A stretch of DNA of 64,000 nt, from the NCBI RefSeq assembly GCF_013340845.1, contig NZ_AP020335.1, positions 1,612,001 through 1,676,000 of the forward strand, given 5' to 3'. A model generated the notes under the pieces. The model did no database searches. It saw only the letters and a list, made by a program, of their open reading frames with translations, and was not told the DNA's origin. This stretch comes from Hydrogenovibrio marinus (GTDB taxonomy: Bacteria; Pseudomonadota; Gammaproteobacteria; Thiomicrospirales; Thiomicrospiraceae). The translations under genes and the position numbers were made by a program. Of the stretch, positions 10,498 to 53,080 are shown in pieces. Every line of letters starts with the position of its first letter. Within the stretch, counting starts at the first letter, position 1.

Positions 10498-10515
10498 AAA
10501 ATCTGCCAGGTTGGG
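10498..10515 (+). repeat. Dispersed 18-bp repeat, copy 1 (exact)
   Basis: AAAATCTGCCAGGTTGGG, followed by two more G. It lies between the TrpD2-like gene and moeA, which are both on the minus strand. It is an exact copy of the element found ten times in this window. Confidence 0.9.
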
Positions 10516-10535
10516 GGAAACACCACCAACACAAC

Positions 10536-11525
10536 TTAATCATTTCGCTTTTGCCAAAACTGCTTGGCTTGCAAAACCGACTCATCAATTGATAAATCTT
10601 TCGTCAACATCAGTGCCGAAGCCACGCTGGCAATCACTGCCCCTTCGCCATAAACATCTTCAACTTCCCCGCGCCATAAACGCATCACATCATCCGGTTC
10701 CCAGGTTTTCGGGCGTGTTTGACGTTCAATAATGCCTTTAAAAGCAATCGACTCGGGTACTTCACCCGGAGAGGTAAGCCGAGACACAAACAAATTCGTC
10801 AAGGCATCAGGGCGAATTTCCGCCTCGCCGCCTTCACCTTTGAAAACCAAATTTTTCGGTGTTGCCAGCGCTTGCGCAGCAGCATGATGCAAGTTCTCTA
10901 CACCCTTATGGAAAATACCTTGGATTGCGCAAGGCGCGTTCAGCGGATTCAGCAACTTCACCGCCGTGTTAAATACGGTGCGCACGCCCAACTCCGACTT
11001 CAAATGCAAAATCTCGCGCAACTGCGGGGCATAAGCCGATAAGGGTAAATACACCAACTCACCTTGAGCAATATGTTGCTCGGCATCTGCCACACTGGTT
11101 GCCTCGTAAGCCCCTAAATCTTCTAAAAACGCCTGTGCATAATGCCGGTTGTTAAACTGACCGTCATCACCGTGCAAACAAACTCGAAAGCCGTTTTGCA
11201 CCAGCAACTTCACACTCAACAGATAGTAAGGCGGATAACGCCACTTCCCTGCATAAGATGACCAATCCAAATCCACATTTGATGCCGGACCTTCTAACCC
11301 TAAGGCACTTCTCAAGCCTTTGACGAACCCTATCAACTCTGATGGTGTTTCGCCGTTGGCGCGCATCAGCAACAGAAACGCGCCCAGTTGTTTATCGGTC
11401 ACCTCGCCTGCCAATATCATTGCCAATGCGTCCGCTGCTTCCTCTTCAGTCAAAGGACGACGACTTTTCGGGCCTTTGCCTAAAATGCGAAGATAATGAC
11501 TGAATGGATGATCGCTTAATGTCAT
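10536..11525 (-). CDS. ybiB: TrpD2/YbiB-family glycosyltransferase-fold protein
   Basis: The 329-residue protein has the anthranilate phosphoribosyltransferase fold. An N-terminal helical domain (LTEEEAADALAMILAGEVTD, then GAFLLLMRANGETPSELIGF) is followed by the alpha/beta domain with KLLNPLNAPCAIQGIFHKG and a GEGGEAEIRPD loop. The sequence fits the TrpD2 (YbiB) group, which lost the enzyme activity; E. coli YbiB binds nucleic acid. It starts 2 bp after the stop of cysG and precedes moeA, so it is embedded in the nitrate assimilation unit. What a TrpD2 protein does there is unknown. Confidence 0.82.
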   Translation of the reverse strand: MTLSDHPFSHYLRILGKGPKSRRPLTEEEAADALAMILAGEVTDKQLGAFLLLMRANGETPSELIGFVKGLRSALGLEGPASNVDLDWSSYAGKWRYPPYYLLSVKLLVQNGFRVCLHGDDGQFNNRHYAQAFLEDLGAYEATSVADAEQHIAQGELVYLPLSAYAPQLREILHLKSELGVRTVFNTAVKLLNPLNAPCAIQGIFHKGVENLHHAAAQALATPKNLVFKGEGGEAEIRPDALTNLFVSRLTSPGEVPESIAFKGIIERQTRPKTWEPDDVMRLWRGEVEDVYGEGAVIASVASALMLTKDLSIDESVLQAKQFWQKRND

Positions 11526-11527
11526 CT

Positions 11528-12982
11528 TTAAACCGCAACCCTATGAAGTGGCGGGCTTTGTTCCGCCTGCTGTACAAAACGCTTGGCGTTCTGGATGCGT
11601 TCGCGCACCTTGACGACTTCACCGACCACCAACAATGCCGGTGGTTTAATCGCTTGCTTGGCAATGGTTTCTGTCAACTTACCAAGAGAACTCACCGTCA
11701 CCTTCTGGTCAGCACGTGTACCACGTTCGATAATCGCTGCTGGCGTGCCTGGATTCATACCATGCGCAATCAAACCTGCTTGGATTTTTGGTGCATTCTT
11801 GATTCCCATATAGAAAACCATCGTGTCGCCAGAATGCGCCAATCGACCATAATCTATAGCATTGCCACCTTCTTGCTGATGCCCTGTCACCAACGCTACC
11901 GACTGAGAAAATTCACGATGCGTCAAAGGGAAGTCTGCATAAGCTGCACAACCAGCCGCCGCGGTAATGCCGGGTACCACTTGATAAGCAACACCGGCTT
12001 TCGCCAAGATTTCAACTTCTTCACCACCGCGTCCGAAAATATAAGGGTCTCCTCCCTTCAAACGTGCCACTTTTTTACCTTGCTTGGCATACTCGACCAA
12101 CATACGGCAAATATCTTCTTGCGGTACGGCGTGATGTTTTGATTTTTTACCAACATAAACACGCTCGGCTTCGCGACGCGCCATATCAACAATCTCTGGA
12201 GAAACCAAGCGGTCATACAGCACCACATCCGCTTGTTGCAACAGTCGTTGTGCCTTGAAAGTCATCAATTCCGGATCACCCGGTCCTGCCCCAATCACAT
12301 AAACCTCGCCTACTGCTGCCTCTTCAAAGTTGTCTGCCTGTTCAAGTTTTTTCTCCAGCAAAGCCTCTGCCTCACCGTCTAATCCATGCACGGCTTTGTC
12401 GATAAACAAACCATCCAACAAGCTTTCCCAAAATGCCTTACGACCATCAATAGAAGATATTGCAGCTTTGACCTTGTCGCGATAACGTCCGACTAAATCT
12501 GTCAATCGACCAAATCCGTGAGGAATCATTGTTTCCAGTTTGGCTTTCATGACTCTCGCCAACACTGGTGAGCGACCACCAGTTGAAATCGCAATAGTCA
12601 TCGGCGCTCTATCGACAATCGCCGGTAGAATGAAATCACAATATTCAGTTTGATCCGCCACATTCACCGGGATACCCGCCGCCTGACAATATTCATAAAC
12701 AGCGATATTCACCGCTTGATTGTCGGTTGCAGAAATCACCAGTTTCGGCAACTGCTCACCAAACACATCAGCCATCACCTTCGGGCTAAATACGCCCTGA
12801 TGCCAAGTCACTTTGTTTTGGTTCAAAAAAGACTGCATCTCCGACTTTAGCGCTGGCGCAATCACCATCACCTGTGCACCAGATTGAATGAACAAATCCG
12901 CTTTACGCGCAGCTACCACGCCGCCGCCAACAATCAAGCAGGCTTGCTGTTTAATATTCATGAAAATCGGTAAGTAATCCAT
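11528..12982 (-). CDS. cysG: Siroheme synthase CysG (trifunctional)
   Basis: CysG converts uroporphyrinogen III to siroheme, the cofactor of the NirB nitrite reductase encoded nearby. The N-terminal half (about 1-210) is the NAD-dependent precorrin-2 dehydrogenase/ferrochelatase with CLIVGGGVVAARKADLF and the STGGRSPVLARVMKAKLE segment. The C-terminal half (about 225-465) is the SAM-dependent methyltransferase with VYVIGAGPGDPELMTFKAQR, VVLYDRLVS and RLKGGDPYIFGRGGEE. Length 484 is usual (E. coli 457). It lies 20 bp after nasA, so it is probably cotranscribed with it. Confidence 0.96.
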   Translation of the reverse strand: MDYLPIFMNIKQQACLIVGGGVVAARKADLFIQSGAQVMVIAPALKSEMQSFLNQNKVTWHQGVFSPKVMADVFGEQLPKLVISATDNQAVNIAVYEYCQAAGIPVNVADQTEYCDFILPAIVDRAPMTIAISTGGRSPVLARVMKAKLETMIPHGFGRLTDLVGRYRDKVKAAISSIDGRKAFWESLLDGLFIDKAVHGLDGEAEALLEKKLEQADNFEEAAVGEVYVIGAGPGDPELMTFKAQRLLQQADVVLYDRLVSPEIVDMARREAERVYVGKKSKHHAVPQEDICRMLVEYAKQGKKVARLKGGDPYIFGRGGEEVEILAKAGVAYQVVPGITAAAGCAAYADFPLTHREFSQSVALVTGHQQEGGNAIDYGRLAHSGDTMVFYMGIKNAPKIQAGLIAHGMNPGTPAAIIERGTRADQKVTVSSLGKLTETIAKQAIKPPALLVVGEVVKVRERIQNAKRFVQQAEQSPPLHRVAV

Positions 12983-13002
12983 ATCACACCTCCAACAACA
13001 GG

Positions 13003-15813
13003 TTAAACCAACTCGGTCACTTCCATTAAAGTTTCTTGTAGAATTTCTTGTAGTTCAGGCACACAACTGCCACAGTTGGTTCCCGCTTTTAATGCCTGAC
13101 CGATGGCTTCCACCGACGTCAGATGATCGTTTTGTATGGCTTCGACAATCGTATTGAAGCCGACACTGAAACAAGAACAGATAATCTTGCCGGCATCCTT
13201 CGCACCACTGGCTTTACCAGCCAATAAACTTCTTCTTTCCATTGATGCCAGTTCATCCTGTTCGAACAACATGCCCAACCAATCACGACTAAGTAGCGGC
13301 CAAGGCTTACCTGATGGTGATGTTCCCTCGCTCACCGGCGCAATAAACATGACCGCTTGCAATCGGTTATCTGACAAACACGCCAAACGGATTTGCTTGC
13401 GGTTCTCATCTTCATATTCCATCCAATCCAATTCATCTATTTGTTTGTCATGGCCAAGTTCAGACTGCATCAACAAGGTTTGAAAAGCCTGCAAATTACT
13501 CTGTAAATCAAAGTTGCCCGCCAACTCGTAACGATAGAATCCTTGCCCTTTGATCTTTACCCAATAAAGTTCGTCAGACGATTGCGTTGCATGCATCAAT
13601 TGCGCGGTAATTTCTGTCATATTCATAGCAACTCGGCTTAATACCACAGCCTGCCAACGAGTGTTGAATGCTTCGACTTTTACCACCGAATGCTTGGATT
13701 CAGGTTGACCCGACATTGGGTCAACGTTCGGTGCCACCAAAATATCAACCTTGCCATGACTGGTGTATTGATTGGTCCAATGCATTGGCGCAAACACTTC
13801 TTTTGGTCTCTGAGCATCGCTGATTTCTACACGACCGATAAACACGCCAAGCTCATTAGAAGCTCTTACCAATCCGTCCTTTTGCAAGCCAAGCGCGTCT
13901 GCATCTTTAGGGTTTAATGACAAATAAGGTTCATCACGGTGAGCCATCAATTTTCCAGTTTTGGCAGTGCGCGTCATGGTGTGCCATTGATCTCGAATAC
14001 GCCCGGTATTGAAGACAAAAGGCTTATCTTTGGTTGGCAGACTCTTTGGCGGCATTGGCGTAATGGGAATAAAGCGCGCTTTACGATTTGGGGTAAAGAA
14101 TAAACCGTTCTCAAACATTCTCTGGGTGCCTTGAGGGTTTCCTTGTGCATCTTTGGTCACCACAGGCCATTGGATAGGTTTCAAATCAAGGTAATCTTCT
14201 TCGCTCAAACCCACCAAAGCAGACAGATCGAAATCGCGCAAAGATTGTCCTGCACCACTCCCATTTTCAAAAGCGGATAAACGTGCATGCTCGTCAAAGA
14301 TATCTGCCGGAGAGGCATAATCGAACGCAGAGGCGAAGCCCATACGTTTTGCCACTTCGCAAATCAACCACCAATCGGCTCTTGCTAAGTCTGGACCTTG
14401 CATGAATTGACGTTGAATAGAGATGGTACGGTCTGAGTTGGTGACGGAACCCGACGTTTCCCCCCAAGTCAGTGCCGGTAGCAAAATATCAGCAACCTCA
14501 GTGGTATCGGTGCTTTGCATACAGTCCGAAACCACTACAGTTTCGCAAGCCTGTAGTGCGGCCTTAACCGCATCGGCATTCGGCATGGAAACGGCTGGAT
14601 TGGTGTTCATAATCCAAATCGCTTTAATCTTGCCGTCCGCCACGGCTTGGAACATATCCACCGCTTTGAGGCCTTCTCGCTTCGCCATGTTCGACGCCTG
14701 CCAAAACCGAGCAACACGGTCGACGTTTGCAGCCTGAGTGAAATCCATATGCGCTGCCATCTGGTTTGCCAGGCCACCGACTTCACGCCCACCCATCGCA
14801 TTCGGTTGCCCGGTAATGGAAAAAGGCCCTGCCCCTTCATAACCGATTTTGCCGCCCGCCAAATGACAGTTGATGATGGCATTGGATTTATCCACGCCAC
14901 TGCTGGATTGATTCACGCCTTGAGAATAGAGCGTCACCACCTTGCGACTCTCTGCAAACCAAGCAAACCATTGCGCCAAATCCTGTTCACTGACATCGCA
15001 CTGCTCCGCAACCTCAGCGATTCCATTTTGTCCGCTGGCTGCCGCCAACGCATCCTCAAAACCTTCGGTGAAGAGCTTGATATAGTCGGTATCCACTGCG
15101 TCGTTGGTCACAAGATAATTCAACAGACCGTTGAACAAAGCGGCATCCATCCCCGGACGAAGTGCCAAGTGAATATCGGCAATTTCACAAGTCGCGGTGC
15201 GACGTGGGTCAACCACCACCACTTTCATATTTGGGTTGTTTTTTTTCGCCGCAGCAATGCGTTGATAGACAACCGGATGTGCCCAAGCGGCATTGGAGCC
15301 GACCAGCGTAATCACATCCGCCTGCTCCAAATCTACATAACTACATGGCACGGTATCCGAACCAAACGCGCGCTTATAGCCCACTACGGCAGACGCCATG
15401 CACAAGCGGGAGTTGGTGTCGATGTTTGAGGTACCGATAAAGCCTTTAATTAATTTATTGGCAACGTAGTAATCCTCGGTCAGCAACTGCCCTGAAACAT
15501 AAAATGCCACGCTGTCAGGACCATGCTCGGCAATCGTCTTTTGGAATCGTGAGGCCACTTCCGTCAAAGCGGTTTCCCAATCCACTACTTCGCCATTGAT
15601 TTGCGGCGCCAGCATTCTGCCTTCAAAATCCAGCGTTTCACCCGTCGCCGAACCTTTGACACACAAACGCCCAAAGTTAGCTGGGTGTAACTTGTCGCCA
15701 ACGACTTTCACCTTGCCCAGTGTCGATGTCGGCGTGACATCAATGCCGCAACCAACGCCGCAATAAGGGCAAGTAGTTTTGATGGTGTTTGGCTTTTGTT
15801 CCGCGGATTGCAT
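13003..15813 (-). CDS. nasA: Assimilatory nitrate reductase, molybdopterin catalytic subunit
   Basis: NasA reduces nitrate to nitrite in the cytoplasm. The 936-residue protein begins with a [4Fe-4S] site (TCPYCGVGCGIDV, then RLCVKGSATGETL). It continues with the bis-MGD catalytic domain (SRLCMASAVVGYKRAFG, TGQPNAMGGREVGGLANQMA) and the molybdopterin dinucleotide-binding domain (TGRIRDQWHTMTRTAKTGKL). It ends with a BFD-type [2Fe-2S] domain (KIICSCFSVGFNTIV and GTNCGSCVPEL). The C-terminal iron-sulfur domain is typical of NasA that takes electrons from a NasB-like flavoprotein. A leader with terminator and -24/-12 promoter precedes it. Confidence 0.96.
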   Translation of the reverse strand: MQSAEQKPNTIKTTCPYCGVGCGIDVTPTSTLGKVKVVGDKLHPANFGRLCVKGSATGETLDFEGRMLAPQINGEVVDWETALTEVASRFQKTIAEHGPDSVAFYVSGQLLTEDYYVANKLIKGFIGTSNIDTNSRLCMASAVVGYKRAFGSDTVPCSYVDLEQADVITLVGSNAAWAHPVVYQRIAAAKKNNPNMKVVVVDPRRTATCEIADIHLALRPGMDAALFNGLLNYLVTNDAVDTDYIKLFTEGFEDALAAASGQNGIAEVAEQCDVSEQDLAQWFAWFAESRKVVTLYSQGVNQSSSGVDKSNAIINCHLAGGKIGYEGAGPFSITGQPNAMGGREVGGLANQMAAHMDFTQAANVDRVARFWQASNMAKREGLKAVDMFQAVADGKIKAIWIMNTNPAVSMPNADAVKAALQACETVVVSDCMQSTDTTEVADILLPALTWGETSGSVTNSDRTISIQRQFMQGPDLARADWWLICEVAKRMGFASAFDYASPADIFDEHARLSAFENGSGAGQSLRDFDLSALVGLSEEDYLDLKPIQWPVVTKDAQGNPQGTQRMFENGLFFTPNRKARFIPITPMPPKSLPTKDKPFVFNTGRIRDQWHTMTRTAKTGKLMAHRDEPYLSLNPKDADALGLQKDGLVRASNELGVFIGRVEISDAQRPKEVFAPMHWTNQYTSHGKVDILVAPNVDPMSGQPESKHSVVKVEAFNTRWQAVVLSRVAMNMTEITAQLMHATQSSDELYWVKIKGQGFYRYELAGNFDLQSNLQAFQTLLMQSELGHDKQIDELDWMEYEDENRKQIRLACLSDNRLQAVMFIAPVSEGTSPSGKPWPLLSRDWLGMLFEQDELASMERRSLLAGKASGAKDAGKIICSCFSVGFNTIVEAIQNDHLTSVEAIGQALKAGTNCGSCVPELQEILQETLMEVTELV

Positions 15814-15878
15814 TGTTTAAATTTTCCTTTTGCATCCGTTCAGCGCCTCTTTCAATATTTTCAGAAGCCCTAAAACGC

Positions 15879-15922
15879 AAAAAGGCCCACCTGGCCTTTC
15901 GACCAAGTGAGCCTCATAACTC
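15879..15922 (-). terminator. Leader attenuator of nasA (predicted NasT antitermination)
   Basis: Read on the minus strand, AGGCTCACTTGG pairs fully with CCAGGTGGGCCT (12 bp, 8-base loop) and a run of five T follows. This is an intrinsic terminator 65 bp before nasA. Overlapping its left arm is a small alternative hairpin, GAGT-TATGAG-GCTC (15909-15922). Its six-base loop has G at position 4, as in the RNA sites of ANTAR regulators. Only one of the two structures can form. The shape and the GCTCAC/GTGGGC pairing recur before four other genes here. Confidence 0.8.
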
Positions 15923-15946
15923 AACTATTAACTATGTTTAATGATT

Positions 15947-16068
15947 AGCTGGATGTATTCCAGTTACAGACAAACACTTTATTTTCAATAATTTAGCGTA
16001 TTTTTCATGCTAAATAGCGTTGCCTTTTTAAGTCGCAAAAATCCCCAAAATACAACTTTTGCACCAAC
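15947..16068 (-). promoter_or_regulatory. Sigma-54-type promoter and NtrC-like box of nasA
   Basis: On the minus strand CTGGAATACATCCAGCT (15947-15963) has GG and GC separated by 10 bases, the -24/-12 spacing of sigma-54 promoters. The box TGCACCAAC (plus strand, 16060-16068), like half of an NtrC site, begins 97 bp upstream. The promoter ends 25 bases before the leader hexaloop hairpin. No experiment is implied; this is pattern matching supported by four similar cases in the window. Confidence 0.65.
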
Positions 16069-16090
16069 TCAGCGCTCATTTTGATAACAA

Positions 16091-16414
16091 TCAACTGACG
16101 GCAACCTCTACCGTTTCGCCAACTACTCGCACCGGATAGACTGAAATAGCAATCCCTTCTTTGTCCAGACATTGACCGCTTATCAAGCTGTAATGTTCTT
16201 TGTGCAAGGGAGATGCCACTGTCAACTCGCCTTGACGGTCACCAGTCATACCGCGAGACATGACATTGGCTTGCCCCAAAGGATCATAGTTATCCGTGGC
16301 ATAAACCTGCCCGTCGATATAGAACAATGCGACTTGCTTATTGTTCACCAATGCCGCAACACCGGCATCCTTCACCAAGTCGTTTACCGAACATACTTGT
16401 AAAAACTCGCTCAT
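16091..16414 (-). CDS. nirD: Nitrite reductase small subunit NirD
   Basis: NirD is the Rieske-fold partner of NirB in NADH-dependent reduction of nitrite to ammonium. The 107-residue product has VCSVNDLVKDAGVAALVNNK, then FYIDGQVYATDNYDPLGQAN and SPLHKEHYSLISGQCLD. The usual Rieske Cys-His pairs are absent, as is normal for NirD, which binds no cluster. It follows nirB by 89 bp. The gap holds an inverted pair of the 18-bp dispersed repeat, so there may be an mRNA hairpin between the two genes. Confidence 0.93.
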   Translation of the reverse strand: MSEFLQVCSVNDLVKDAGVAALVNNKQVALFYIDGQVYATDNYDPLGQANVMSRGMTGDRQGELTVASPLHKEHYSLISGQCLDKEGIAISVYPVRVVGETVEVAVS

Positions 16415-16444
16415 TTCTTATTCCTATACTTTGCTGTTCCCCCC

Positions 16445-16462
16445 CCCAACCTGGTAGCTTTT
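16445..16462 (-). repeat. Dispersed 18-bp repeat, copy 2 (2 mismatches)
   Basis: On the minus strand it reads AAAAGCTACCAGGTTGGG, two mismatches from the consensus. With copy 3 (16477-16494, opposite strand) it forms a near-perfect inverted pair with a 14-base spacer, between nirB and nirD. Confidence 0.75.
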
Positions 16463-16476
16463 GAAGCTTTCTCACC

Positions 16477-16494
16477 AAAATCTGCCAGGTTGGG
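16477..16494 (+). repeat. Dispersed 18-bp repeat, copy 3 (exact)
   Basis: AAAATCTGCCAGGTTGGG, exact. It ends 9 bp beyond the nirB stop codon and faces copy 2. The pair could fold into a hairpin of about 18 bp in the nirB-nirD mRNA. Confidence 0.9.
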
Positions 16495-16503
16495 TAGTGG
16501 GCC

Positions 16504-19068: not shown

Positions 19069-19079
19069 CTCCACACCCC

Positions 19080-20348: not shown

Positions 20349-20381
20349 TTCAACCCCCGGTTTCATTCAATTAGGTGAACC

Positions 20382-26969: not shown

Positions 26970-27093
26970 AGAAACTATTAAGCCAATGGAAATTTAGCTA
27001 TACATTTCATCTACTTAGTAGTCTTAACCACCCCCAACCTAGCAGATTTTTTGCGCCTTTGTCGGGCAAAGACTTTCAGTTCTGCACCAAAAT
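26970..27093 (-). promoter_or_regulatory. -24/-12 promoter and NtrC-like box of nitrite channel gene
   Basis: TTGGCTTAATAGTTTCT on the minus strand (26970-26986) keeps the GG and TTTCT positions of the nrtA promoter. TGCACCAAAAT (plus strand, 27083-27093) begins 97 bp upstream, inside the last codons of nasS. The promoter ends 22 bases before the hexaloop hairpin. Confidence 0.62.
27033..27050 (-). repeat. Dispersed 18-bp repeat, copy 4 (1 mismatch)
   Basis: On the minus strand AAAATCTGCTAGGTTGGG, one mismatch. It lies 26 bp after the nasS stop codon, between the NtrC-like box and the promoter of the nitrite channel gene. Confidence 0.85.
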
Positions 27094-29380: not shown

Positions 29381-32011
29381 ATGGATAAACACGAACAAGA
29401 AAAAGATTTCAAACATCTCGGCACACTTGTTATAAAAATGGACTTTTCCGGTTCCTTTCTGGAAATAAACGATGCATTCGTTGAAGCCAGCGAATTCACC
29501 AGAACCGAACTTGCAGGAGAAAACTTCTCCCAATTGCTTCATGAAGACACGCCAGCCAAGCTGACAAAGGATTTATGGCAAACGCTGAAATCCGGGAAAC
29601 CTTGGGTTCAAATCCTGAAAATCAAATGCAACCACGGCAAGTATCTTTGGGCGGAAGCCAATATGGCGCCGGTACTGGAAAACAATAAAGTCATCGCAGC
29701 GCTCGCCGTACTTAAACCCCTAACCAATCAAACTCTGGTTAGCTCAGCAGAAGACGCCGCAACGCTCTATAAAAAGATACGCCACAGTGCTATTCGCAAC
29801 GGCATTCTGCTGACACCTGCGCAGAACCTATGCCTGTTTCACAAAATCCACCCGATCAATCTGATGGTTTCAAGTATTGCGGTAATTGGCGTTCTAGCAA
29901 CTCTACAGCAATTTCATATCACAAATCTGCCAGGTTGGGGTATCCCGGCAATCAGTGCCTTTCTTTTCCTCTACGCGCTTGCTGGACGAAAATACGCCTT
30001 CCAACGCTTAGGCAAAGCAAAAGTCCTGATCGACAAGATGCGCCAGGCAGACTTTAACGGCCAAGTGGATTTCTACGGTGACCACTCGCTAAGCCGTTTG
30101 GTCTCTGCCGTGAAAATGATGCAGGTACAACTGGGCGCAATGGTGGAAGATACCAAAGCGCAAATCAACCGTAGTACTCGGCTCAAGTCTGCATTGGACA
30201 GTGCCTCTGCCAACATCATGATGGTCAGCAACAAAGGCCGGATTATGTATTTCAACGACGAGTTGAAGCAGTTTTTCATCAAACACGAAAGCAGCTTGAA
30301 ACAGGCCTACCCGAAATTCGACATCACCTCACTCATCGGTCAGCCTTTGGCAGAGATTTTCCATACCGATAAGTTCAACAATCTTCAAGAAAACAAACAG
30401 GAAATTGATGTAGAAGAACCCTTTGCTGACCTATTGATTAACCTTAAGATCAAACCGGTGTTTGATGCGCAACAGCACGTGATCGGCTCTGTGGTGCAGT
30501 GGGATGATCTAACGCAGCAACGCAAGATAGAAGAAAACCTCAAGTTCACGCTTGAGATGGCTTCTATGGGTCATACTGCGTTGAAAATCGACACCAATAA
30601 TCTATCCGGTTTCTTCTTGGATACCTCCAATAACATCAATGCTTTGCTGAGTGAGCTGAACCAGATTATCGAAAACATGGTATTTGTCATGACCAAGCTC
30701 GCCACCGGCGATTTGCAAGGTCGTATCGAAAAGAGTCTACAAGGTTCTTTGGCAGCAATGAAAGGCTCCACCCACGTATCTTTGGACAACTTAAGTGCCA
30801 TTGTTTACTACATCAAACAGTCCGCGGAAATGGTAAGTACTGCCGCGAGTGAATCCGCAAGTACCGCAATGGATCTTTCAGATAGAACACAAAGAGCCGC
30901 GGCAACCCTGGAACAAATCAACACCACCATGCAATCGGTACACAGCCGCCAAACGGAAAACACGCAAGAACTGATGCAAATCAACCAACTTGCCAGCAAG
31001 ACCGTTGAGAAAAACCTGGCTGCGAAATCCGCGCTGGAAGCAACGGTTATTGCCATTGATGAAATGCAAACCACCTCAGAAAAAATCGCCAACATCATCG
31101 GTATGATTGATGGCATCTCCTTCCAGACTAACCTGCTTGCTCTAAACGCCGCAGTAGAAGCTGCCCGTGCCGGAGAGCATGGCCGTGGTTTTGCCGTGGT
31201 CGCGGGAGAAGTCAGAAGTCTCGCACAGAAATCTGCTGGCGCGTCGGCAGAGATTCGCAAGTTGATTGAAGAGTCCATCACGAAAGTACACCAAGGGGTC
31301 AGCAAGGTTCAAGAAACCAATCAGGCATTCGATGAGGTTAACCAAAGCGTTTCCCACATCGGCAACTCATTATCCGAAGTGGTGTCTTCGATTGAGCAGC
31401 AACAGGTTGCCGTTTCTCGCATTGCGGAATCCATTAACTCCTTGGACGACAACTTACAGAGTAATGCTGCACTGGTAGAAGAAACTTCCGCTGCTTCCGA
31501 ATCTTTGAAAGACCAAGCCGTTCTACTCAGACGTGAAACAGACAAATTCACCATTGATGAAAGCAGAGCGAAATCCTTTATCCAAACTACACCGGATATT
31601 TCAGGCATTCGATTATCAGACGTGCGCCAGTCCATGCGTATATGGAAAGCCAATACCCAGGCTTACCTCAATGGGGTTAATGTGCCTATCGACTTGGATC
31701 ATGTTGGCGACCATCACGCCTGTGGCGTCGGTAAAGCCATCTCGCACCTGCTACAAGCGCACCCAAGCATAGAACATATGTCTGAGTACAAAGCGATGAA
31801 CGAGTTGCACATACGCCAACACAAGCTGGTACTTGATGTCCTTGAGCTGATGAAAGCCGATAACAATGATGCCGCCATCCTCAAACAAAAAGATGGTCTG
31901 TTGGATAACTTTGTTGACGTATCCGATCAGCTTGATGAAGCGTTAAAAGCACTTGATCTTGCCATTGCTCACAATTTGGATGTACCGGCTACTGCTCCAC
32001 TGCTACAGTAA
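29381..32011 (+). CDS. PAS-PAS methyl-accepting chemoreceptor with CZB domain
   Basis: This 876-residue receptor starts with an Aer-like PAS domain (about 12-112; [28 protein letters not shown]). Two membrane segments (162-178 and 188-202) join through a very short loop. Then come a second PAS domain (about 270-375), the signalling hairpin (tip near 580-605; [20 protein letters not shown]) and a C-terminal zinc-binding CZB domain (750-830; W755, H778/H779, C781, H810/H814). The sensing domains face the cytoplasm, which suggests energy or redox taxis. It is divergent from nasT and has a NasT-type leader. The loop TNLPGWG is encoded by a copy of the dispersed repeat. Confidence 0.93.
29922..29939 (+). 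repeat. Dispersed 18-bp repeat, copy 5 (inside chemoreceptor gene)
   Basis: CAAATCTGCCAGGTTGGG, one mismatch, plus one more G. In frame it encodes NLPGW in the short loop between the two membrane segments of the receptor. Confidence 0.85.
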
Positions 32012-32095: not shown

Positions 32096-33013
32096 ATGTT
32101 TCTTTATTTCAGCGCCCCTATTTGCGAAAAGCACAGCAACAGCTGGGGGCATCCCGAAAGCGGTGAACGCATTATCCGTATTGAGCAAGCACTCAAAGAT
32201 GCCGGACTGATGCAACATGCCATTATCCATCCCTTTTCTCCTGCTACAGAGGAAGATGTGCTTCGAGTTCATCACCCAAGAACCTGGCAAACACTCAAAG
32301 ACAATCTTCCCCAAACTGGCTTCGTAAAAATAGATGAAGACACGGGCATGAATCCCTACAGCCTTGATGCCGCACTAATGGCAACTGGTGCGATGCTCGC
32401 CGCCATTGACGGTGTGATGAACAACCAAGCCAAAACCGCGTTTTGCAATATCCGCCCACCAGGACACCATGCCGAAATCAAACGACCAATGGGGTTTTGC
32501 CTCATCAATCATATCGCCATCGGTGCGGCTTATGCGCTTGAAAAATACCAACTACAACGCATCGCCATTGTCGATTTTGACGTTCATCATGGCAACGGCA
32601 CCGAGGATTTCGTGGAGAGCGAAGCGCGCATCGGTTTTGTCTCCAGCTATCAGGAAAATATCTTTCCTTTTGCATCGCCCTTTTCTGATTCAGACAATAT
32701 CCTAAAGTTACCGCTGAAAGCGCATAGTGATGGTGATGTTTTCATGGAGGCTTGGCAAGAAGGCTTTGCATTCGTCAGAAACTTCAAACCTGAATTGATA
32801 TTGGTGTCCGCCGGCTTCGATGCCCATCGACTTGACCCGCTCGCCAGCCTGAATCTGACAGAAGACGACTTTTATCGCTGGACACAACAGTTGGTAAAAA
32901 TTGCGGATGAGATGTGTGAAGGCAAAATTGTTTCCACCCTTGAAGGTGGCTATCATCTTGACGCACTTGCCGCCTCAGCTGTCGCTCATGTAGAAGCCTT
33001 TCTGAAACAATAA
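32096..33013 (+). CDS. Histone deacetylase family hydrolase
   Basis: The 305-residue cytoplasmic enzyme belongs to the class II-like HDAC/acetylpolyamine amidohydrolase family, zinc amidases that remove acyl groups from lysines or polyamines. The family motifs are present: HPESGERIIRIEQAL, RPPGHHAE with the charge-relay histidines, IVDFDVHHGNGTED and SAGFDAHRLDPLA with the zinc ligands, and TLEGGYH at the end. Bacterial substrates are mostly unknown. The TAA stop codon (33011-33013) overlaps a copy of the 18-bp repeat. Confidence 0.93.
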   Translation: MFLYFSAPICEKHSNSWGHPESGERIIRIEQALKDAGLMQHAIIHPFSPATEEDVLRVHHPRTWQTLKDNLPQTGFVKIDEDTGMNPYSLDAALMATGAMLAAIDGVMNNQAKTAFCNIRPPGHHAEIKRPMGFCLINHIAIGAAYALEKYQLQRIAIVDFDVHHGNGTEDFVESEARIGFVSSYQENIFPFASPFSDSDNILKLPLKAHSDGDVFMEAWQEGFAFVRNFKPELILVSAGFDAHRLDPLASLNLTEDDFYRWTQQLVKIADEMCEGKIVSTLEGGYHLDALAASAVAHVEAFLKQ

Positions 33014-33029
33014 AATCTGCCAGGTTGGG
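33012..33029 (+). repeat. Dispersed 18-bp repeat, copy 6 (exact)
   Basis: AAAATCTGCCAGGTTGGG; its first two A are the end of the TAA stop codon of the hydrolase gene. Confidence 0.9.
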
Positions 33030-33362: not shown

Positions 33363-33380
33363 AAAATCTGCCAGGTTGGG
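33363..33380 (+). repeat. Dispersed 18-bp repeat, copy 7 (exact)
   Basis: AAAATCTGCCAGGTTGGG, exact, 4 bp before the end of hsdM. With copy 9 in the same orientation at 41862 it brackets the restriction-modification locus. Confidence 0.9.
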
Positions 33381-38969: not shown

Positions 38970-38987
38970 CCCAGCCTGGCAGATTTT
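38970..38987 (-). repeat. Dispersed 18-bp repeat, copy 8 (1 mismatch)
   Basis: On the minus strand AAAATCTGCCAGGCTGGG, one mismatch, followed by one G. Its first two A belong to the TAA stop codon of hsdR (38986-38988), just as copy 6 does with the hydrolase stop. Confidence 0.85.
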
Positions 38988-41787
38988 AGGCGATTAAGTA
39001 GCCGTTAAGTTCTTGAATAATTTTATTTAGGTCTTGCCCGAAAAGTTGCCTTGCTTTGATAAGACCACCGTCTTGATTAAAGGGCGTGTATTCAAAGTCA
39101 TCTAAGGTCATCTCTGCGTTTTGGGCAATTTGGTCTTTGATTTTATTGAGCCAGTCAAGTTGCTCGGCATTAAAGGCGGTGCCGGTTTGTTGCATTTGGT
39201 TTAGCCAAACTTGGTAGTTTTTGTTGACGGTGTTTTCAAAGGGTTCTAACTCATTGACATTTTGCGTGGCAAAGCGAATCAAACTAACCAAGTTAGTCAG
39301 CAATTCTTTAGCGGGTACGCCTTTGACTTTCGCTTTTTCAAGCTGTTCATACGCCTTCCAGACTTCTAACGGAGCGATATGATACGGCGGCTGTTTGATT
39401 TCATCGGCGAGTTGTTCTATCAAGTCATAGCTTAGATGACGCTGCTGGTAGGGCTTTTGGTAAATAAGGGTAATGGCGTCCAATTCGTTTTTGTGGTCTT
39501 GTATAAACTGTTGCCAGTTTTGAATAAGCTGTTCGGCTTTTTCACTATCGTAACCTGTGCCTTCAATGAGCTCGTCCGCACTGTCGTCTATGATTTGTTC
39601 GGTGTCTTTGCGTAGCTCTTCTAGCAACTCTCGTAAGTCTGGGTTGTGGAAGGGTTTTACCAGCGAGTCTGCGGTGGGTTCAAATGTGCATTGAATGTCT
39701 TTATCAGACAGATCATCTTCTATTTTGCCGGTGGCAATCACGGCGTTTTGAATAAGGGTGTCTTCATTCGTGGCGTGAATCAACTCGCCTGCCAGCAAGG
39801 CCAGTGGTTTACCTGCGACTTGGCTGACTCTTTGGCGTTGTTTGTCACTGAGTTTTATGTCCAACCGCATGAGGCGATTGCCCAAACTACGCAGCGTATC
39901 TAAGTGGCGATCTCCGCGAGCGACTTGTTCCATGAGTTTAAAAGTAGAAACCGAGGGTTTGCTTTCTAAAGACTTGGATTCGGTTTTGTCTGTTTCGGTG
40001 ACGCCGACGGCATCGACCAATACAAAGCGTGTTTTGGCAACGGCGTCCGGTGTGACTTTTTGCAGGGCGTCGGCATCAATCACTCTCGTACCACGGCCTT
40101 TCATTTGCTCATAGTAGGCTTGGCTTTTGACATCTCGCATAAAGATAACGCATTCAAGCGGTTTGATGTCTGTGCCGGTGGCAATCATATCAACCGTAAT
40201 GGCAATGCGAAATATGGGGCTGGTGCGAAACTCGCCAATGGTTTCATCAGCGGTTTTTTTGCCGACTTTGTAGGTGACTTTTTTGCAGAAGTCATTGCCT
40301 TGGTTAAAGACTTCTCTCACGGCATCCATAATACGGTCTGCATGATCGTCATCTTTGGCGAAAATCAAAGTTTTGGGCACCCATTCCATGTGTTTATCTG
40401 TGCCTTGGCCTTGCCAGTGTCTTTCAGGAAAACACTCCGGAAGGCAGCGGTCTTTAAAGCCTTGAATAATGGTTCTGATTTGGTTGGGGGCAATCACACT
40501 GCGGTCTATTTGGGTGGCTTGGTAGGTTTCGTCTTCATCAAGCTTTTGCAGTCGTTTGGCTTTGGTGAGTTTGTCACGCACTTGCACGGTGGTGCCGGCC
40601 TCTATGGTGTCACCCTCTTCTGACTTTTTGGTTTTGATGCGGTAGATGTCATAACCGACATTGACCTTGTCGATAATGGCGTCTTCATGGGTGTATTCCG
40701 ACACAAGGTTTTGCCCAAAGAACCCAATGGTCTTTTTGGTAGGCGTGGCGGTTAGGCCGATGAGAAAGGCATCGAAGTAATCAATCACTTGTCGCCAAAG
40801 GTTGTAAATAGAACGGTGGCATTCGTCAATGATAATGAGGTCAAACTGCTCAATGGGAATGGCAGGATTATAGGAGACCTCTCTAACTTTTTGATTGGGC
40901 GCGCTTTCAATCTCGTAAGTGGAGTGTTCTTCGGTTTCGTCATCCATCTCTTTGCCGGACAACTGTGAATACAAGCGTTGAATGGTTGAAATAGTGACTT
41001 TGATGTCATCCCCCACGCCTGCGGCACCGAGCTGCTTAACGTTATAGAGACTGGTGAACTTACGGCCGTCATTCGGCACGGTGTAGTTTTCGAACTCGGC
41101 TTTGGCTTGACGACCAAGGTTACCTCTATCGACCAAAAACAAAATGCGTTTGGCTTTGGCAAACTTGGCGAGGCGATACACTTGGGTCACGGCGGTAAAG
41201 GTTTTACCGGCTCCGGTTGCCATTTGCAATAAAGCGCGGGGCTTGGCTTGCTTAAGGCTATTTTCTATGCCGTTGATGGCATCAATCTGGCAGTCTCGCA
41301 ACCCGGCTGGGTCAAGTTCTGGTAGGTTTTGGAGCCTGGCTCGGAAGGTTTGTTCTTCTTGTAGCCATTCATGCAGGGTTTCAGGTTTGTGAAAATGAAA
41401 GACAAAACGGGAACGAGGAATAGGATCTCTTTCATCGCGAAAGCGGATTTCAACATTGGTGGCTTCATACAAAAACGGCAGCGGTTGACCGTCTTCAGAC
41501 CAACGTTTTATATAGCTGGTATTGGATGTGCTATAGCGGCCGGATTGCTCGGCGACACTACCAAGCGAAGTACCTTCTCGCTTAGCCTCTATAATCCCGC
41601 AGGCCTTGCCATCAATAAAGAGCATGTAGTCTGCAGGACCTGTATTTGTATCCATTTCACGAATGGCAACCCCAAGACCTGCATAAAGATTCATTCTATG
41701 TTTGTCTTGAACGTGCCAGCCAGCTTGAGCTAATTTCTCATCAATCTGCTCTCTGGATAAAGCTTCATTTATGGAGTAGTTTTGCAT
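38986..41787 (-). CDS. hsdR: Type I restriction endonuclease subunit HsdR
   Basis: HsdR translocates and cleaves unmodified DNA. The 933-residue protein begins with a PD-(D/E)xK nuclease (D53, E67 and K69 in PADYMLFIDGKACGIIEAKR). A superfamily 2 helicase motor follows with Walker A MATGAGKTFTAV, IIDECHRS, GLTATP and the late motif MKGRGTRVIDAD. It is the first gene of the locus in the minus direction and is followed by hsdS after 38 bp. The order hsdR-hsdS-x-hipB-hipA-hsdM is unusual. No frameshift is seen, so the enzyme looks functional. Confidence 0.95.
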   Translation of the reverse strand: MQNYSINEALSREQIDEKLAQAGWHVQDKHRMNLYAGLGVAIREMDTNTGPADYMLFIDGKACGIIEAKREGTSLGSVAEQSGRYSTSNTSYIKRWSEDGQPLPFLYEATNVEIRFRDERDPIPRSRFVFHFHKPETLHEWLQEEQTFRARLQNLPELDPAGLRDCQIDAINGIENSLKQAKPRALLQMATGAGKTFTAVTQVYRLAKFAKAKRILFLVDRGNLGRQAKAEFENYTVPNDGRKFTSLYNVKQLGAAGVGDDIKVTISTIQRLYSQLSGKEMDDETEEHSTYEIESAPNQKVREVSYNPAIPIEQFDLIIIDECHRSIYNLWRQVIDYFDAFLIGLTATPTKKTIGFFGQNLVSEYTHEDAIIDKVNVGYDIYRIKTKKSEEGDTIEAGTTVQVRDKLTKAKRLQKLDEDETYQATQIDRSVIAPNQIRTIIQGFKDRCLPECFPERHWQGQGTDKHMEWVPKTLIFAKDDDHADRIMDAVREVFNQGNDFCKKVTYKVGKKTADETIGEFRTSPIFRIAITVDMIATGTDIKPLECVIFMRDVKSQAYYEQMKGRGTRVIDADALQKVTPDAVAKTRFVLVDAVGVTETDKTESKSLESKPSVSTFKLMEQVARGDRHLDTLRSLGNRLMRLDIKLSDKQRQRVSQVAGKPLALLAGELIHATNEDTLIQNAVIATGKIEDDLSDKDIQCTFEPTADSLVKPFHNPDLRELLEELRKDTEQIIDDSADELIEGTGYDSEKAEQLIQNWQQFIQDHKNELDAITLIYQKPYQQRHLSYDLIEQLADEIKQPPYHIAPLEVWKAYEQLEKAKVKGVPAKELLTNLVSLIRFATQNVNELEPFENTVNKNYQVWLNQMQQTGTAFNAEQLDWLNKIKDQIAQNAEMTLDDFEYTPFNQDGGLIKARQLFGQDLNKIIQELNGYLIA

Positions 41788-41861: not shown

Positions 41862-41879
41862 AAAATCTGCCAGGTTGGG
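41862..41879 (+). repeat. Dispersed 18-bp repeat, copy 9 (exact)
   Basis: AAAATCTGCCAGGTTGGG, exact, in the 177-bp gap between the hsdR start and the outer-membrane protein gene. Confidence 0.9.
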
Positions 41880-43404: not shown

Positions 43405-43421
43405 ATTTCTACCCTTTTAAC

Positions 43422-43451
43422 AAAAAGCCCTAAGGATTAGTTAGGGCTTTT
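43422..43451 (-). terminator. Terminator hairpin after nuoN
   Basis: AAAAGCCCTAA and TTAGGGCTTTT form a perfect 11-bp stem with an 8-base loop ending in five T on the minus strand. It lies 6 bp after the nuoN stop and before DUF2818, so it should end most of the nuo transcript. Confidence 0.88.
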
Positions 43452-43457
43452 GAAATC

Positions 43458-44903: not shown

Positions 44904-44913
44904 TCACCTATCT

Positions 44914-46428: not shown

Positions 46429-46455
46429 CTAAAAAATTCCCTTATCTTCTTATTC

Positions 46456-48432: not shown

Positions 48433-48440
48433 CTTTAAAA

Positions 48441-48746
48441 TTATCCCTTCATTGAACCAAGATCATCAACGTTGATGCTCTTACGATTACGGAAAACTAG
48501 CACGATAATGGCAAGGCCAATGGCCGCTTCTGCTGCTGCTACCGTCATAATGAAAAATACAAAAATTTGTCCAGTGACATCATTTAAATAATGAGAAAAG
48601 GCAACCAAGTTGGTGTTTACAGCTAACAACAGCAACTCAATCGACATCAAAAGAATAATGATGTTTTTGCGGTTAAGGAAAATACCTGCCATGCTAATCA
48701 TGAACAAGACAGCTCCAAAAATTAAGTAATCTGAAAGCGCTATCAT
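48441..48746 (-). CDS. nuoK: NADH-quinone oxidoreductase subunit K
   Basis: This 101-residue membrane subunit has three transmembrane helices. The conserved glutamates of the proton path lie in [16 protein letters not shown] and [19 protein letters not shown]. It overlaps nuoJ by 4 bases (stop and start share the ATGA region), showing translational coupling. Length is normal. Confidence 0.97.
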
Positions 48747-49384
48747 TCGTCTTTTCCTTCTTCTTTTTTCACGTCTGCTTCAACAACCGCATCCATTTTG
48801 ACCATACGGAAACGATCTTCAGCACGCACTTTAACCTGCTTATCAATATCTTGATACAAGACTTCTGTTGTAGGACGACGGCGAAGCGTTAATGTAATTG
48901 CCGCAATAATACCGACCAAAAGCAAAACAGCCGCAAGAATGAATGCATAAGCATGCGTTGTATACAAAGGCACCGCGATAGCTTTTGTGTTGCTGTAATT
49001 CGCGCCAAACTCTTGTGGTGAAGGGTAATGCGACAAACCAAATCTGTCAGGCCCTAAAACCAAATACATCAAAGCAAAAATGGCGATAGATACCAATACA
49101 CCTAAAGGCAGGTAACGCGTAAACCCTTCTTTAATTTGGGCTACGTTGATATCTAACATCATTACCACAAATAGGAACAAAACCATCACCGCACCGACAT
49201 AAACGAGAATCAGGACCAAACCTAGAAACTCTGCTTGCGCCGTCAACCAAACACCTGCTGTTGAGATGAATGCCAATACCAGCCATAACGCTGCTTTAAC
49301 AGGGTTTTTGACACTAATCATCATCAACCCTGAAATCGCCGCTATACCGGCCAACACGTAAAAAATAAATTGTAAAAATGTCAT
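48743..49384 (-). CDS. nuoJ: NADH-quinone oxidoreductase subunit J
   Basis: NuoJ is a membrane subunit near the quinone-coupling region. The 213-residue protein has five hydrophobic segments; [20 protein letters not shown] is the characteristic third helix with its flexible GAVMVL part. The last 45 residues are charged and cytoplasmic ([20 protein letters not shown]). Order and 22-bp distance to nuoI are standard. Confidence 0.96.
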
Positions 49385-49406
49385 CTAATGTCTCTCTTGG
49401 TCTACA

Positions 49407-49898
49407 TTAACGGTACTTAGCGTCTGCTGCTCTATCAGCAGCAATTTGCGCTTCGTGCTTATCACCAAAAGCCAACAGCTTTTCTTTTGTCATAATATGA
49501 GGTCCTCTCTCGTGGAACTCATATTCAAAAACACGCGTTTCTACAATCGCATCTACTGGGCAGGCTTCTTCGCAGAAACCACAGTAAATACACTTGAACA
49601 TATCGATGTCGTATTGCGTTGTACGACGAGAACCATCTTCTCTCTCTTCTGATTCAATGGTAATGGCATTTGCTGGACATACTGCTTCACACAATTTACA
49701 CGCAATGCAACGCTCTTCACCATTCTCATAACGTCGAAGCGCATGGTGGCCTCTGAAACGAGGAGAAAGTGGTGTTTTTTCTTCTGGGTAACGAACGGTA
49801 ATCTTCTTTTTGAAAAGGTATTTACCTGTTACTGCCAAGCCTTTGAATAGTTCAATCAATCCAAAGGTTTTAACTTGATGTTTTAAAAATGCAATCAT
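49407..49898 (-). CDS. nuoI: NADH-quinone oxidoreductase subunit I
   Basis: NuoI carries iron-sulfur clusters N6a and N6b in the hydrophilic arm. The 163-residue protein shows two [4Fe-4S] motifs, [16 protein letters not shown] and [16 protein letters not shown], and the upstream [18 protein letters not shown]. It lies 12 bp after nuoH on the minus strand. Confidence 0.98.
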
Positions 49899-49910
49899 GA
49901 TGAACCTCTA

Positions 49911-50975
49911 TTAATTGAACCAAGGGCCAAGTTTGACATATTCCATGATCATCACAACGAACACCCATACGATTGTCACTGGAATCAAAACTTTCCAGCC
50001 CAGACGCATGATTTGGTCGTAGCGATAACGTGGGAAAGTCGCACGGAACCACAAGAACAAGAATAATAAGAAGGCAACCTTAGCAAACAACCAGATAAAT
50101 CCAGGAATCCAACCAAAAACTGCTTCCACCCCAGGAATACCGTCAAACGGCGATAACCAACCACCAAGGAACATAATCGCTGTCATAAAGGAGATCAGAA
50201 TCATCATCGAATATTCTGCTAGGAAGAATACGGCGAATGCCATACCAGAATATTCAACATGGAAACCGGCAACAATTTCAGACTCCCCTTCCGCAACGTC
50301 AAACGGCGCACGGTTGGTTTCTGCTAAACCGGAAATGAAGTAAACGAAGAACATTGGTAGCAATGGAATCCAGTACCAATGCCAAATACCCCCCTTCTGC
50401 CCATTAACGATGTCGGTCAGGTTCATGCTGTCAGCAACCATCAATACCGTTACCAACGCGAAGCCCATCGCGATTTCATAGGAAATCTTCTGTGCAGATG
50501 CACGAAGTGCACCAAGGAATGCATACTTAGAGTTGGATGCCCAACCAGAAATAACGATACCGTAAACACCAATCGAAGCCACAGCCAATACATAAAGCAC
50601 GCCTGCGTTGATGTTAGCAACCACGACACCATTCGCATCAAACGGGATAACCGCCCAAGCCGCTACTGCAGGCGCGATTGCCAATACTGGCGCGATAATA
50701 AACAGGTACTTGTTAGATTGGCTAGGGATAACCACTTCTTTGGTCAAGGCTTTAACCGCATCTGCAATCGGTTGCAACCAACCACCTGGACCGACTCGGT
50801 TAGGCCCCATACGAACTTGCATATAGCCGATGACTTTACGCTCAGCGTAAGTCAACCATGCAACCGTAATCATGACCGGCATGATAACAACCACTGCCTG
50901 GATTAATAACGTAATCAGCACAGCCAGCCAGTCATACATGAAAGAAGATAGCCAAGCTTGTAATGAATCAAACAT
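49911..50975 (-). CDS. nuoH: NADH-quinone oxidoreductase subunit H
   Basis: NuoH lines the quinone chamber of complex I. The 354-residue membrane protein has [20 protein letters not shown] and [19 protein letters not shown] near the N-terminus, and [20 protein letters not shown] in the conserved acidic loop. Length and position between nuoG and nuoI are standard. Confidence 0.97.
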
Positions 50976-50989
50976 AATGACAAATCTCC

Positions 50990-53080
50990 TTAATTAGATG
51001 CTGACGCATCAGGGGTTGCTTGCAAAGATGCTGAACGGCGCACCAGTGCATCTACCGAATAAATTGAAACAAGTGGTGTAGGAATTAAGCTTGCTTCATC
51101 ATTGGCCAACGACAATGCAGCATAATCAGCACTCGGAATTTCTGAATCCAAAACTTCAGCCAACACTTGATTAGAATGGGTTTGCTCAAAGCCTTCCAAC
51201 TCGAACATGTTGCCCAACACGCGGAAGATTTTCCAAGCAGGCTTTGCTTCGCCTTGAGGTTCAACTGCCATTTTGAATGACTGCTTCACACCCGTAGCAT
51301 TAACAAAAGTCCCTGCAGTTTCAGCGAATGTTGCGATTGGCAACATGACGTCTGCATAACTACGTTGCGCTTCCGTATCGAAGGCAGTCAATGACACAAC
51401 AAAGTCCGCAGACTGCATCGCTTGAAGTGCCATGTTCCCATCTTGAACATCATGTTCAGGTTCAATACCCAAGTTGATGAAAGTCTTCAAATTGTTTGAC
51501 AACATTTCTACGGTATTCAAACCACCTTCTTTTGGCACAAAACCAGTTAGCTGTGCCCCTACTTCGTTTCCTGCCATTGGCAAAATACTGAAGGTTGCTT
51601 GAGTCACTTTAGCGATGTCGTCACACAACTTAACGATTTGTGAATAACGTGCATCCATTTGCGCAATTTGTCCCAACATGATTGCTGATGGGTTGTTGTG
51701 CAAATGTGTTGCAATGTCTTTATGTGCATCAGTTACTTCAACTGAAGATAGGTAATTCGGAACATTTCCAGCCATTGACGTCGCAGCTTTTGCAACAGCT
51801 TTCAACTCGGCTAGAAGGTCTTCGTTAGCCAAAGTTTCAACATCATAGTTGAACTTAAAGTCTTGAGGATTCACCGCAAATACCCTAGCACCAGACAACT
51901 GTGCTTTACGAACACGGTGATTCAGCATTGGCAATTCTTTTCTTAAGAAGCTACCAACCAGAAGCACCGATTTCAAAGACTCTACTTCATCCAGAGAATG
52001 ATTTAGCTTAGACCCAACCTGGCAGATTTTATCCATTGAGAAATCTACTTGTCTCAATCTGTGGTCTAGATTGCGAACACCTAATCCTCTCGCCAATTTT
52101 TGCAACAAGTGCAATTCTTCTAATGTAGAAGACGGTGAAGCCAATACACCGATATCATTTGGTTCAGCCAAACGTGATTTTAGAGAATCAACAACAAATT
52201 CCAATGCCGTTTCCCAGTCAACTTTTTTCCATTGACCATTCTTCTTAATCATTGGAGCCGTTAGACGATCTTCACTGTTAATCCCTTCATAAGAGAAGCG
52301 ATCACGGTCAGAAATCCAAACTTCGTTGATGGCTTCGTTTTCATCTGGAACAACACGAAGTACTTTATTGTTTTTAGAATGGATAATGATGTTAGAGCCG
52401 ATACTGTCGTGAGGCGCAATAGACTTATGAGATTTCAACTCCCATGGTCTAGCTGAATAACGGAACGGCTTAGAGGTCAATGCACCTACTGGACACAAAT
52501 CAATCATGTTCCCGGACATTTCAGAAGAAACCGACTTCTCGATATACGTACCGATTTCCATCCATTCACTACGACCAGTAGCACCTAGCTCCATAATCCC
52601 GCCAATCTCTTGGCCGAAACGGACACAACGGGTACAGTGAATACAACGCGTCATATCGGTATGGATAAGCGAACCAATATTTTTATCACCTAGAATACGC
52701 TTGGCTTCCGTATATTTGGAAACATCATCACCATACTCCATTGCCACATCTTGCAGCTCACACTCGCCACCTTGGTCACAGATTGGACAATCCAGTGGGT
52801 GGTTGATCAACAAGAATTCCATGACTGATTTTTGTGCCGCAACTGCTTTAGAGGATTTAGTAAAGACCTTCATCCCATCCGTTACAGGGGTTGCACAAGC
52901 TGGCAAAGCTTTAGGCGCACCTTCAACTTCAACCAAACACATACGGCAGTTTGCCGCGATGGATAGCTTCTTGTGGTAACAAAAACGCGGAATAGAAATT
53001 TGAGCATCGTCAGCAACATCAATAAGCATGTCACCTTCACGAGCTTCAACAACTTGTCCGTTTATCTCAATTTTAACCAT
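50990..53080 (-). CDS. nuoG: NADH-quinone oxidoreductase subunit G
   Basis: NuoG is the largest peripheral subunit and carries several clusters. The 696-residue protein has an N-terminal [2Fe-2S] domain ([20 protein letters not shown]), [31 protein letters not shown], and the molybdopterin-like domain ([20 protein letters not shown]). A copy of the 18-bp dispersed repeat lies inside the gene and encodes KICQVG at codons 351-356, in a poorly conserved loop before [16 protein letters not shown]. The frame is intact, so the protein should work. Confidence 0.97.
52013..52030 (-). repeat. Dispersed 18-bp repeat, copy 10 (exact, inside nuoG)
   Basis: On the minus strand AAAATCTGCCAGGTTGGG, exact and in frame with nuoG (KICQVG). 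It is the only copy in the housekeeping part of the window. Confidence 0.9.

Follow-up and report, generated by a model that had tools for sequence, protein, structure and literature searches.

An abundant 18-base word in the genome of Hydrogenovibrio marinus as a putative DNA uptake sequence

The repeat at the locus and across the host genome

The stretch of DNA analysed here (the window, 64,000 nucleotides) comprises bases 1612001-1676000 of the single 2,491,293-base contig of Hydrogenovibrio marinus, and it carries dispersed copies of an 18-base-pair (bp) repeat for which a role as a DNA uptake sequence is probable. A recount at ≤3 mismatches returned exactly 10 copies, six of them exact, three with one mismatch and one with two, reproducing all the positions, strands and exact copies listed in an earlier note on this DNA. 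That note had held that the 18-mer does not recur by chance, and this is borne out, since 100 dinucleotide shuffles of the window gave a mean of 0.09 copies and never more than one.

Eight copies lie between genes and two within open reading frames (ORFs), a division that had also been noticed before. An exact copy at 10498..10515 (+) and a one-mismatch copy at 27033..27050 (-) each stand between co-directional genes, and the copies at 16445..16462 (-, two mismatches) and 16477..16494 (+, exact) form the left and right arms of an inverted pair. One convergent gap has an exact copy at either end, 33012..33029 (+), whose first bases belong to the stop codon of ORF 32096-33013 (+), and 33363..33380 (+). 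A one-mismatch copy at 38970..38987 (-) overlaps by two bases the 3' end of ORF 38986-41787 (minus strand), which encodes a type I restriction R-subunit; two of the eight intergenic copies (33012 and 38970) share two bases with a stop codon in this way. The last intergenic copy, 41862..41879 (+), is exact and lies in a divergent region. Both coding copies run in the sense direction: that at 29922..29939 (+, one mismatch) is in frame 1 of ORF 29381-32011 (+), whose product has the PAS and MCP-signal domains of a chemoreceptor, and the exact copy at 52013..52030 (-) lies inside nuoG (ORF 50990-53080, minus strand) and is the basis of the orthologue comparison given below.

Across the whole genome, the count at ≤2 mismatches is 371 copies, or about one per 6.7 kb, with 172 on the forward and 199 on the reverse strand, against none for the reversed control pattern. 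The earlier note would have given up its view of the repeat had the genome-wide count been close to chance with copies confined to the window, and the genome holds the opposite.

The anatomy of the repeat was studied in a host sample of 464 kb, composed of the window and twenty spaced 20-kb stretches, where gene calls followed a longest-ORF rule in place of a gene finder, and 90% of the sequence was called coding. This sample contains 71 sites at ≤3 mismatches when the G spelling is taken as reference and 75 when R and Y are allowed. The motif is 18-19 bp long, AAAATCTRCCAGGTTGGG(G). The consensus of the 71 copies reads AAAATCT[G/A]CCAGGTTGGG, with G at the variable place in 54 and A in 17, and an additional G follows the 18-mer in 51. 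Its edges are sharp, information falling to background immediately on either side, and no common flank extends past 19 bp.

Fifty of the 71 copies are intergenic, though intergenic DNA makes up 9.8% of the sequence. Convergent gaps hold 22 of these fifty as against 16% of the intergenic bases counted (p=3e-6), and divergent gaps hold four as against 28% (p=8e-4). The 21 coding copies occupy all six frames and are read as unlike peptides (NLADF, NLPGW, ICQVG, SARLG, PPTWQ, QPGRF); therefore, the constraint acts on the DNA. All eight neighbouring pairs less than 150 bp apart are in opposite orientation, seven of them being 22-58 bp apart, and one inverted pair has a predicted folding energy of -32 kcal/mol, compared with -0.9 kcal/mol for a single copy.

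The favouring of convergent gaps and the folding of the inverted pair speak for a set of intrinsic terminators of transcription based on a shared hairpin, and the palindromic words of the relatives described below, with their A and T tracts, resemble bidirectional terminators. Nevertheless, this origin is very unlikely, since a single host copy hardly folds, 57 of the 71 copies stand outside the seven close pairs, and the 21 coding copies occur in both orientations. A role in termination is more plausibly secondary, as it is for the known uptake sequences of Neisseriaceae and Pasteurellaceae in the available part of PMC1852404.

GC skew flips sign close to base 1 and again in the interval from 1.22 to 1.32 Mb. 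When the contig was split at its midpoint, which is near but not exactly at the terminus, 89 of the 172 plus-strand copies fell in the first half (p=0.70). Thus, the strand bias relative to the origin that the earlier note had proposed to look for is absent, which rules against a replication-oriented signal.

Plus-strand copies number 4-12 per 100 kb across the first 1.4 Mb. This figure and the half-contig count are both taken from the first 100 plus-strand places among the matches listed, and the sampled stretches are consistent with them. Such an even spread would suit a binding site for a chromosome-organising or nucleoid protein, acting as a dimer in most relatives, and so would the palindromic form of the word seen there, which has A/T tracts roughly a helical turn away from its centre. 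However, the copies follow no origin, terminus or strand pattern, and they show the excess in convergent gaps and the opposite-strand pairs already described. Moreover, the spelling varies within the genus and no word occurs in the sampled parts of two family members (G012 and G018), which is unlike an essential signal. This explanation is therefore considered unlikely, less so than terminators.

Related words in the genus and the family

All 11 members of the genus carry a word of related build: three have the host word, one (G008) has AAAATCGCCAGGGGTGG, and seven have CCAGGCCTGG. The count in relatives that had been suggested earlier gives 385 copies of the host word at ≤1 mismatch in the genome labelled G001, 275 in G004, and zero or one in the other eight. 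Among the matches listed, nearly all G004 copies are spelled CCAGGCTGGG. The copy at 38970-38987, at the 3' end of the type I restriction R-subunit gene, is the sole one in the window with this sister spelling, and may point to an imported segment.

In the seven remaining genus members (G002, G003, G005, G006, G007, G009 and G010), the palindromic CCAGGCCTGG stands between A/T tracts placed about one helical turn from its centre, some copies being without tracts. The A tract is on the left and the T tract on the right in G002, G003, G007, G009 and G010, and the order is reversed in G005 and G006. The G008 word is asymmetric, with 22 core copies in 158 kb, six of them coding. Outside the genus, G013 and G033 have CCAGGCCTGG, G015 has AGCAGGCCTGGT, and G021 and G025 have forms of AACAGGCCTG. 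No repeated word was found in the 100 kb of G012 or the 80 kb of G018, both of genus g3; G011 and G017 were sampled by just 18-20 kb each and say little, and G019 (4 kb) was excluded from the word counts.

The reach of the word was also gauged by counting the core CCAGGYYKGG in 113 genomes, 62 from the family and 51 from other families of the class, a genome being taken as core-rich when its forward matches numbered 100 or more and came to 20 times the forward control or more. By this rule, 30 of the 62 family genomes are core-rich and none of the 51 outside it, where one genome alone reaches 100 forward matches (136, with a control of 70). A scan of genome contigs with the host motif was dominated, among the matches listed, by Hydrogenovibrio sp. 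JE_KL2, the host's own genome possibly being outside its scope; 13 of the 80 matches listed are single matches outside Hydrogenovibrio, one of them in Thiomicrorhabdus cannonii.

A tree of NuoG sequences places the three AAAATCTR genomes in one clade (100/100) and G008 beside it as sister (93/95), and because of this the asymmetric words may have derived once from the palindromic one, with the qualification that the tree has long, open branches and that nuoG itself carries copies.

The palindromic core of the seven genus members and of other genera suggests a further explanation, a highly iterated palindrome like that of cyanobacteria, in which an ancestral CCAGGCCTGG would have been amassed through methyltransferase or repair bias, the host clade having derived an asymmetric version. 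The core contains CCAGG, a Dcm-type site, and core copies in the palindromic relatives are mostly coding (12/12 in G005, 11/13 in G006, 10/12 in G015, 15/21 in G002), with no intergenic preference. Several facts make this account improbable. The host 18-mer is asymmetric, with a fixed A-tract and TCTR, and the G008 word is asymmetric too; CCAGG alone shows no enrichment (500 occurrences where 686 were expected); and the host strongly prefers intergenic and 3'-end sites. In addition, one-mismatch variants of the core are rare (in the host sample, 66 perfect matches to the 10-base core as against a mean of 0.93 for each of 30 variants), and it is whole words that differ between species.

Three side observations concern repeats in these genomes. 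G016 (genus g7; L055-L057, L306-L308) has nine clear copies of AAAAAGTCGGGGACCCCC in 120 kb; this word may be a distant dialect, and the search for ComEA gave no match in that genome. In G004, L021 114-10262 (C1:1-20000) is a long tandem array with 28 copies of a word at a spacing of about 318 bp, which suggests a very large protein of repetitive sequence. Finally, a second repeat, with GGGGTAAGGCGAG, occurs as six tandem copies in G001 (L016, ~1-210), the last one abutting a copy of the 18-mer; the host sample has two related copies (L189 ~1466, L200 ~11370) and the samples of G002, G004, G008 and G009 have none.

Single copies at orthologous loci

The fate of individual copies was followed in relatives' loci that had not been picked by the motif, leaving out the motif-selected L009 and the contig-scan loci; separate alignments to JE_KL2 loci are biased, these having been chosen for holding the motif. 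For G004, alignment was possible for eight host copies, and 130 of 144 motif columns are identical as against 210 of 331 in the 20-base flanks (p=3e-10). Six of the eight have been re-spelled in place by the identical T-to-C change, one is unchanged and one is absent. All four copies aligned to G001 are kept, with 70 of 72 motif bases and 138 of 160 flanking bases identical.

The nuoG copy (52013) lies in a variable linker. At this site, ten family members (G003, G007, G008, G009, G012, G013, G014, G018, G020 and G021) have a sequence of the same length without the motif, and that of further members is longer or shorter by one to several residues. Another nuoG site, about 90 codons past this one, holds a CAGGCCTG copy common to eight species from four genera (G002, G003, G007, G009, G010, G013, G019 and G021), the host reading NVPNYL there, and in G005 and G016 the gene has a copy at yet another place. 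The variation in presence between orthologues that the earlier note had proposed to look for is seen at nuoG and in the copy absent from G004, and is not seen in the four copies aligned to G001.

The nuoG copy, then, has an insertion-free origin. The coding copy L199:5356 likewise aligns without gaps to its motif-free orthologues in G016 and G008, and as far as these two coding sites can tell, copies appear to arise by point change, without insertion. One further coding copy, L194:3430 in an ORF of 1184 residues, faces CCAGGCCTGG in G033 (a single alignment, 65% identity). These data bear on the view of the repeat as a residue of a small mobile element, of the repetitive extragenic palindrome (REP) or miniature inverted-repeat transposable element (MITE) kind, which the near-identical, dispersed and mostly intergenic copies might suggest. 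This is the least likely of the explanations considered, and is contradicted at the coding sites examined (nuoG and L199:5356): orthologues there are of the same length or align without gaps, copies are re-spelled in place, no common flank exists past 19 bp, and a single copy has no strong hairpin (-0.9 kcal/mol). Biased uptake and recombination predict both re-spelling in place and insertion-free origin, whereas insertion does not.

Competence genes, proposed mechanism and known uptake systems

Competence genes, which the earlier note had advised looking for, are present throughout the genus: ComEC, ComEA and DprA are each found in 11/11 members, and in 26 of 28, 33 of 37 and 36 of 37 of the genomes searched, respectively; the family members G014, G016 and G020 are without a ComEA match. 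The PilT family is above cut-off in nine of the 11 genus members, and in the host two ATPases of the PilT/PilU family lie in tandem. There are two secretin loci in the host. One is similar to the mannose-sensitive haemagglutinin (MSHA) pilus locus, with an MshL-like secretin at 248.4 bits (cut-off 250.2) and an MshE-related cyclic di-GMP (c-di-GMP) motif above cut-off; the other (L303 7249-17481) is Tad-like as judged by gene order, with a TadA-type ATPase at 333 bits (cut-off 373). A receptor identified by FimT/GspH homology was rejected, as PF12019 has no match in the genus, and its matches in two of 22 family genomes (G012 and G018) are barely above cut-off, belong to one lineage and carry no weight.

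A candidate source of the receptor is suggested by a host cluster at 2.0357-2.0392 Mb, which encodes proteins of 178, 270, 304 and 411 residues, two having a prepilin start above the curated cut-off, a third one below it, and the fourth matching nothing. The 270-residue member is 94% identical to its counterpart in G001, 74% to that of G004 and 35-47% to those found across the rest of the genus; for comparison, the values for NuoG are 98%, 88% and 65-75%.

Taking these elements together, it can be proposed that a pilin-type surface receptor, perhaps belonging to the MSHA-like pilus, would preferentially bind double-stranded DNA with AAAATCTRCCAGGTTGGG(G), and that the ComEA/ComEC/DprA route would then bring the bound DNA into the cell and recombine it. 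Alleles bearing the motif would be taken up and recombined more often, so that chance copies would spread and be repaired through biased conversion, and hundreds of them would build up where they do little harm, that is, at intergenic 3' ends, in inverted pairs and at tolerant coding spots in any frame, the inverted pairs possibly doubling as terminators. Should the specificity of the receptor shift, copies would follow, giving rise to the dialects of different species.

Several points weigh against this reading. The motif is longer than the known uptake sequences and has unusually few decayed copies, and in most relatives the core is a palindrome, which might equally suit a cytoplasmic protein that acts as a dimer. 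The intergenic preference is found in the host only, copies in palindromic relatives being coding at close to the genome-wide proportion; the mostly coding core copies there slightly lower our confidence in an uptake sequence and slightly raise that in the palindrome and nucleoid explanations. Among eight alignments of host copies to G009, G002, G008 and G013, seven oppose no motif and the remaining one, gappy, opposes the G008 word, so positions are mostly not kept across dialects. ComEC, ComEA and DprA also occur in the word-free G012 and G018 and are non-discriminating, and the ComEA of G008 scores below cut-off. No PilT-family match rises above cut-off in G002 and G010, the copy-richest genus members, or in G014 and G015; PilQ is above cut-off in none of the 22 family genomes searched, and GspH/FimT (PF12019) in none of the 11 genus members. 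In the literature, no uptake or transformation data were found for the genus, and none of the papers listed reports, in its title or abstract, an uptake sequence from Hydrogenovibrio, Thiomicrospira or Thiomicrorhabdus, which is weak evidence as it concerns open-licence literature only.

Once these points are weighed, we still judge that the repeat is probably a DNA uptake sequence. Thus, of the roles first listed for it in the earlier note, uptake is the best supported, the mobile-element residue is contradicted and the nucleoid-binding site has become less likely. With less assurance, we incline to the broader view that this is a third, independent uptake-sequence system, family-wide, whose ancestral palindrome CCAGGCCTGG between A/T tracts became asymmetric once in the host lineage, and whose receptor, neither ComP nor FimT/ComN, would be on an MSHA-like pilus.

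The host family, which we take to be the Thiomicrospiraceae/Piscirickettsiaceae group of sulfur oxidisers, is made up of free-living, mostly marine sulfur-oxidising chemolithoautotrophs. Methylation-based uptake preference, which is different in kind, exists in other bacteria. As far as the available parts of PMC7811141 and PMC4906244 go, a strong preference for genomic uptake words is a trait of two families, Pasteurellaceae and Neisseriaceae, both mainly mucosal. If true, a third case would mean that uptake words evolve repeatedly and without being bound to hosts rich in foreign DNA. It would also offer about thirty species with several spellings for the study of receptor-motif co-evolution, and a practical transformation rule for work with Hydrogenovibrio, and the palindromic words would pose the new question of a pilin reading a two-fold symmetric site.

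The DNA uptake sequences (DUS) of Neisseriaceae form eight dialects that have a common CTG core, track phylogeny, occupy permissive sites and make inverted terminator pairs (PMC3630211 and PMC1852404, in excerpt). The present repeat is like them in its abundant near-exact copies, phylogeny-linked dialects, intergenic inverted pairs and intragenic copies at permissive places, features taken from the accessible portion of PMC3630211. By reading of the consensus words, it is unlike the neisserial 10-mer GCCGTCTGAA quoted in the excerpt of PMC1852404; CTG is present on one strand of CCAGG, and is too short to count alone. Furthermore, the Hydrogenovibrio words are 18-19 bp long and palindromic in most relatives, with no ComP-type receptor identified.

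The extended uptake signal sequence (USS) of Pasteurellaceae consists of an A-tract, a core and a T-tract, has two dialects, and has PpdA, FimT/GspH-like, as its predicted receptor, according to the part of PMC12616744 at hand. The layout of A-tract, GC-richer core and T-tract recurs in five palindromic genus members, the host word having the A-tract only, and dialects and terminator pairs are shared as well (PMC12616744 and PMC7811141, both in part). The cores are unrelated, however, there being no GCGGT in the Hydrogenovibrio consensus words, and whereas the receptor predicted in those excerpts (PpdA/ComN) is FimT/GspH-like, PF12019 finds no such protein in any of the 11 genus members.

HIP1 of cyanobacteria, a highly iterated palindrome (PMC4390886, in excerpt), is similar in being a palindrome repeated very many times per genome, as in seven genus members. 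From what that excerpt gives, it differs from the host-clade word, which is asymmetric, 18 bp long and, in the host, preferentially intergenic, and from the whole-word dialects of the genus. In sum, on present evidence, the repeat behaves like DUS and USS in the main genomic properties that were compared and is a member of neither sequence family, a putative uptake word of different sequence.

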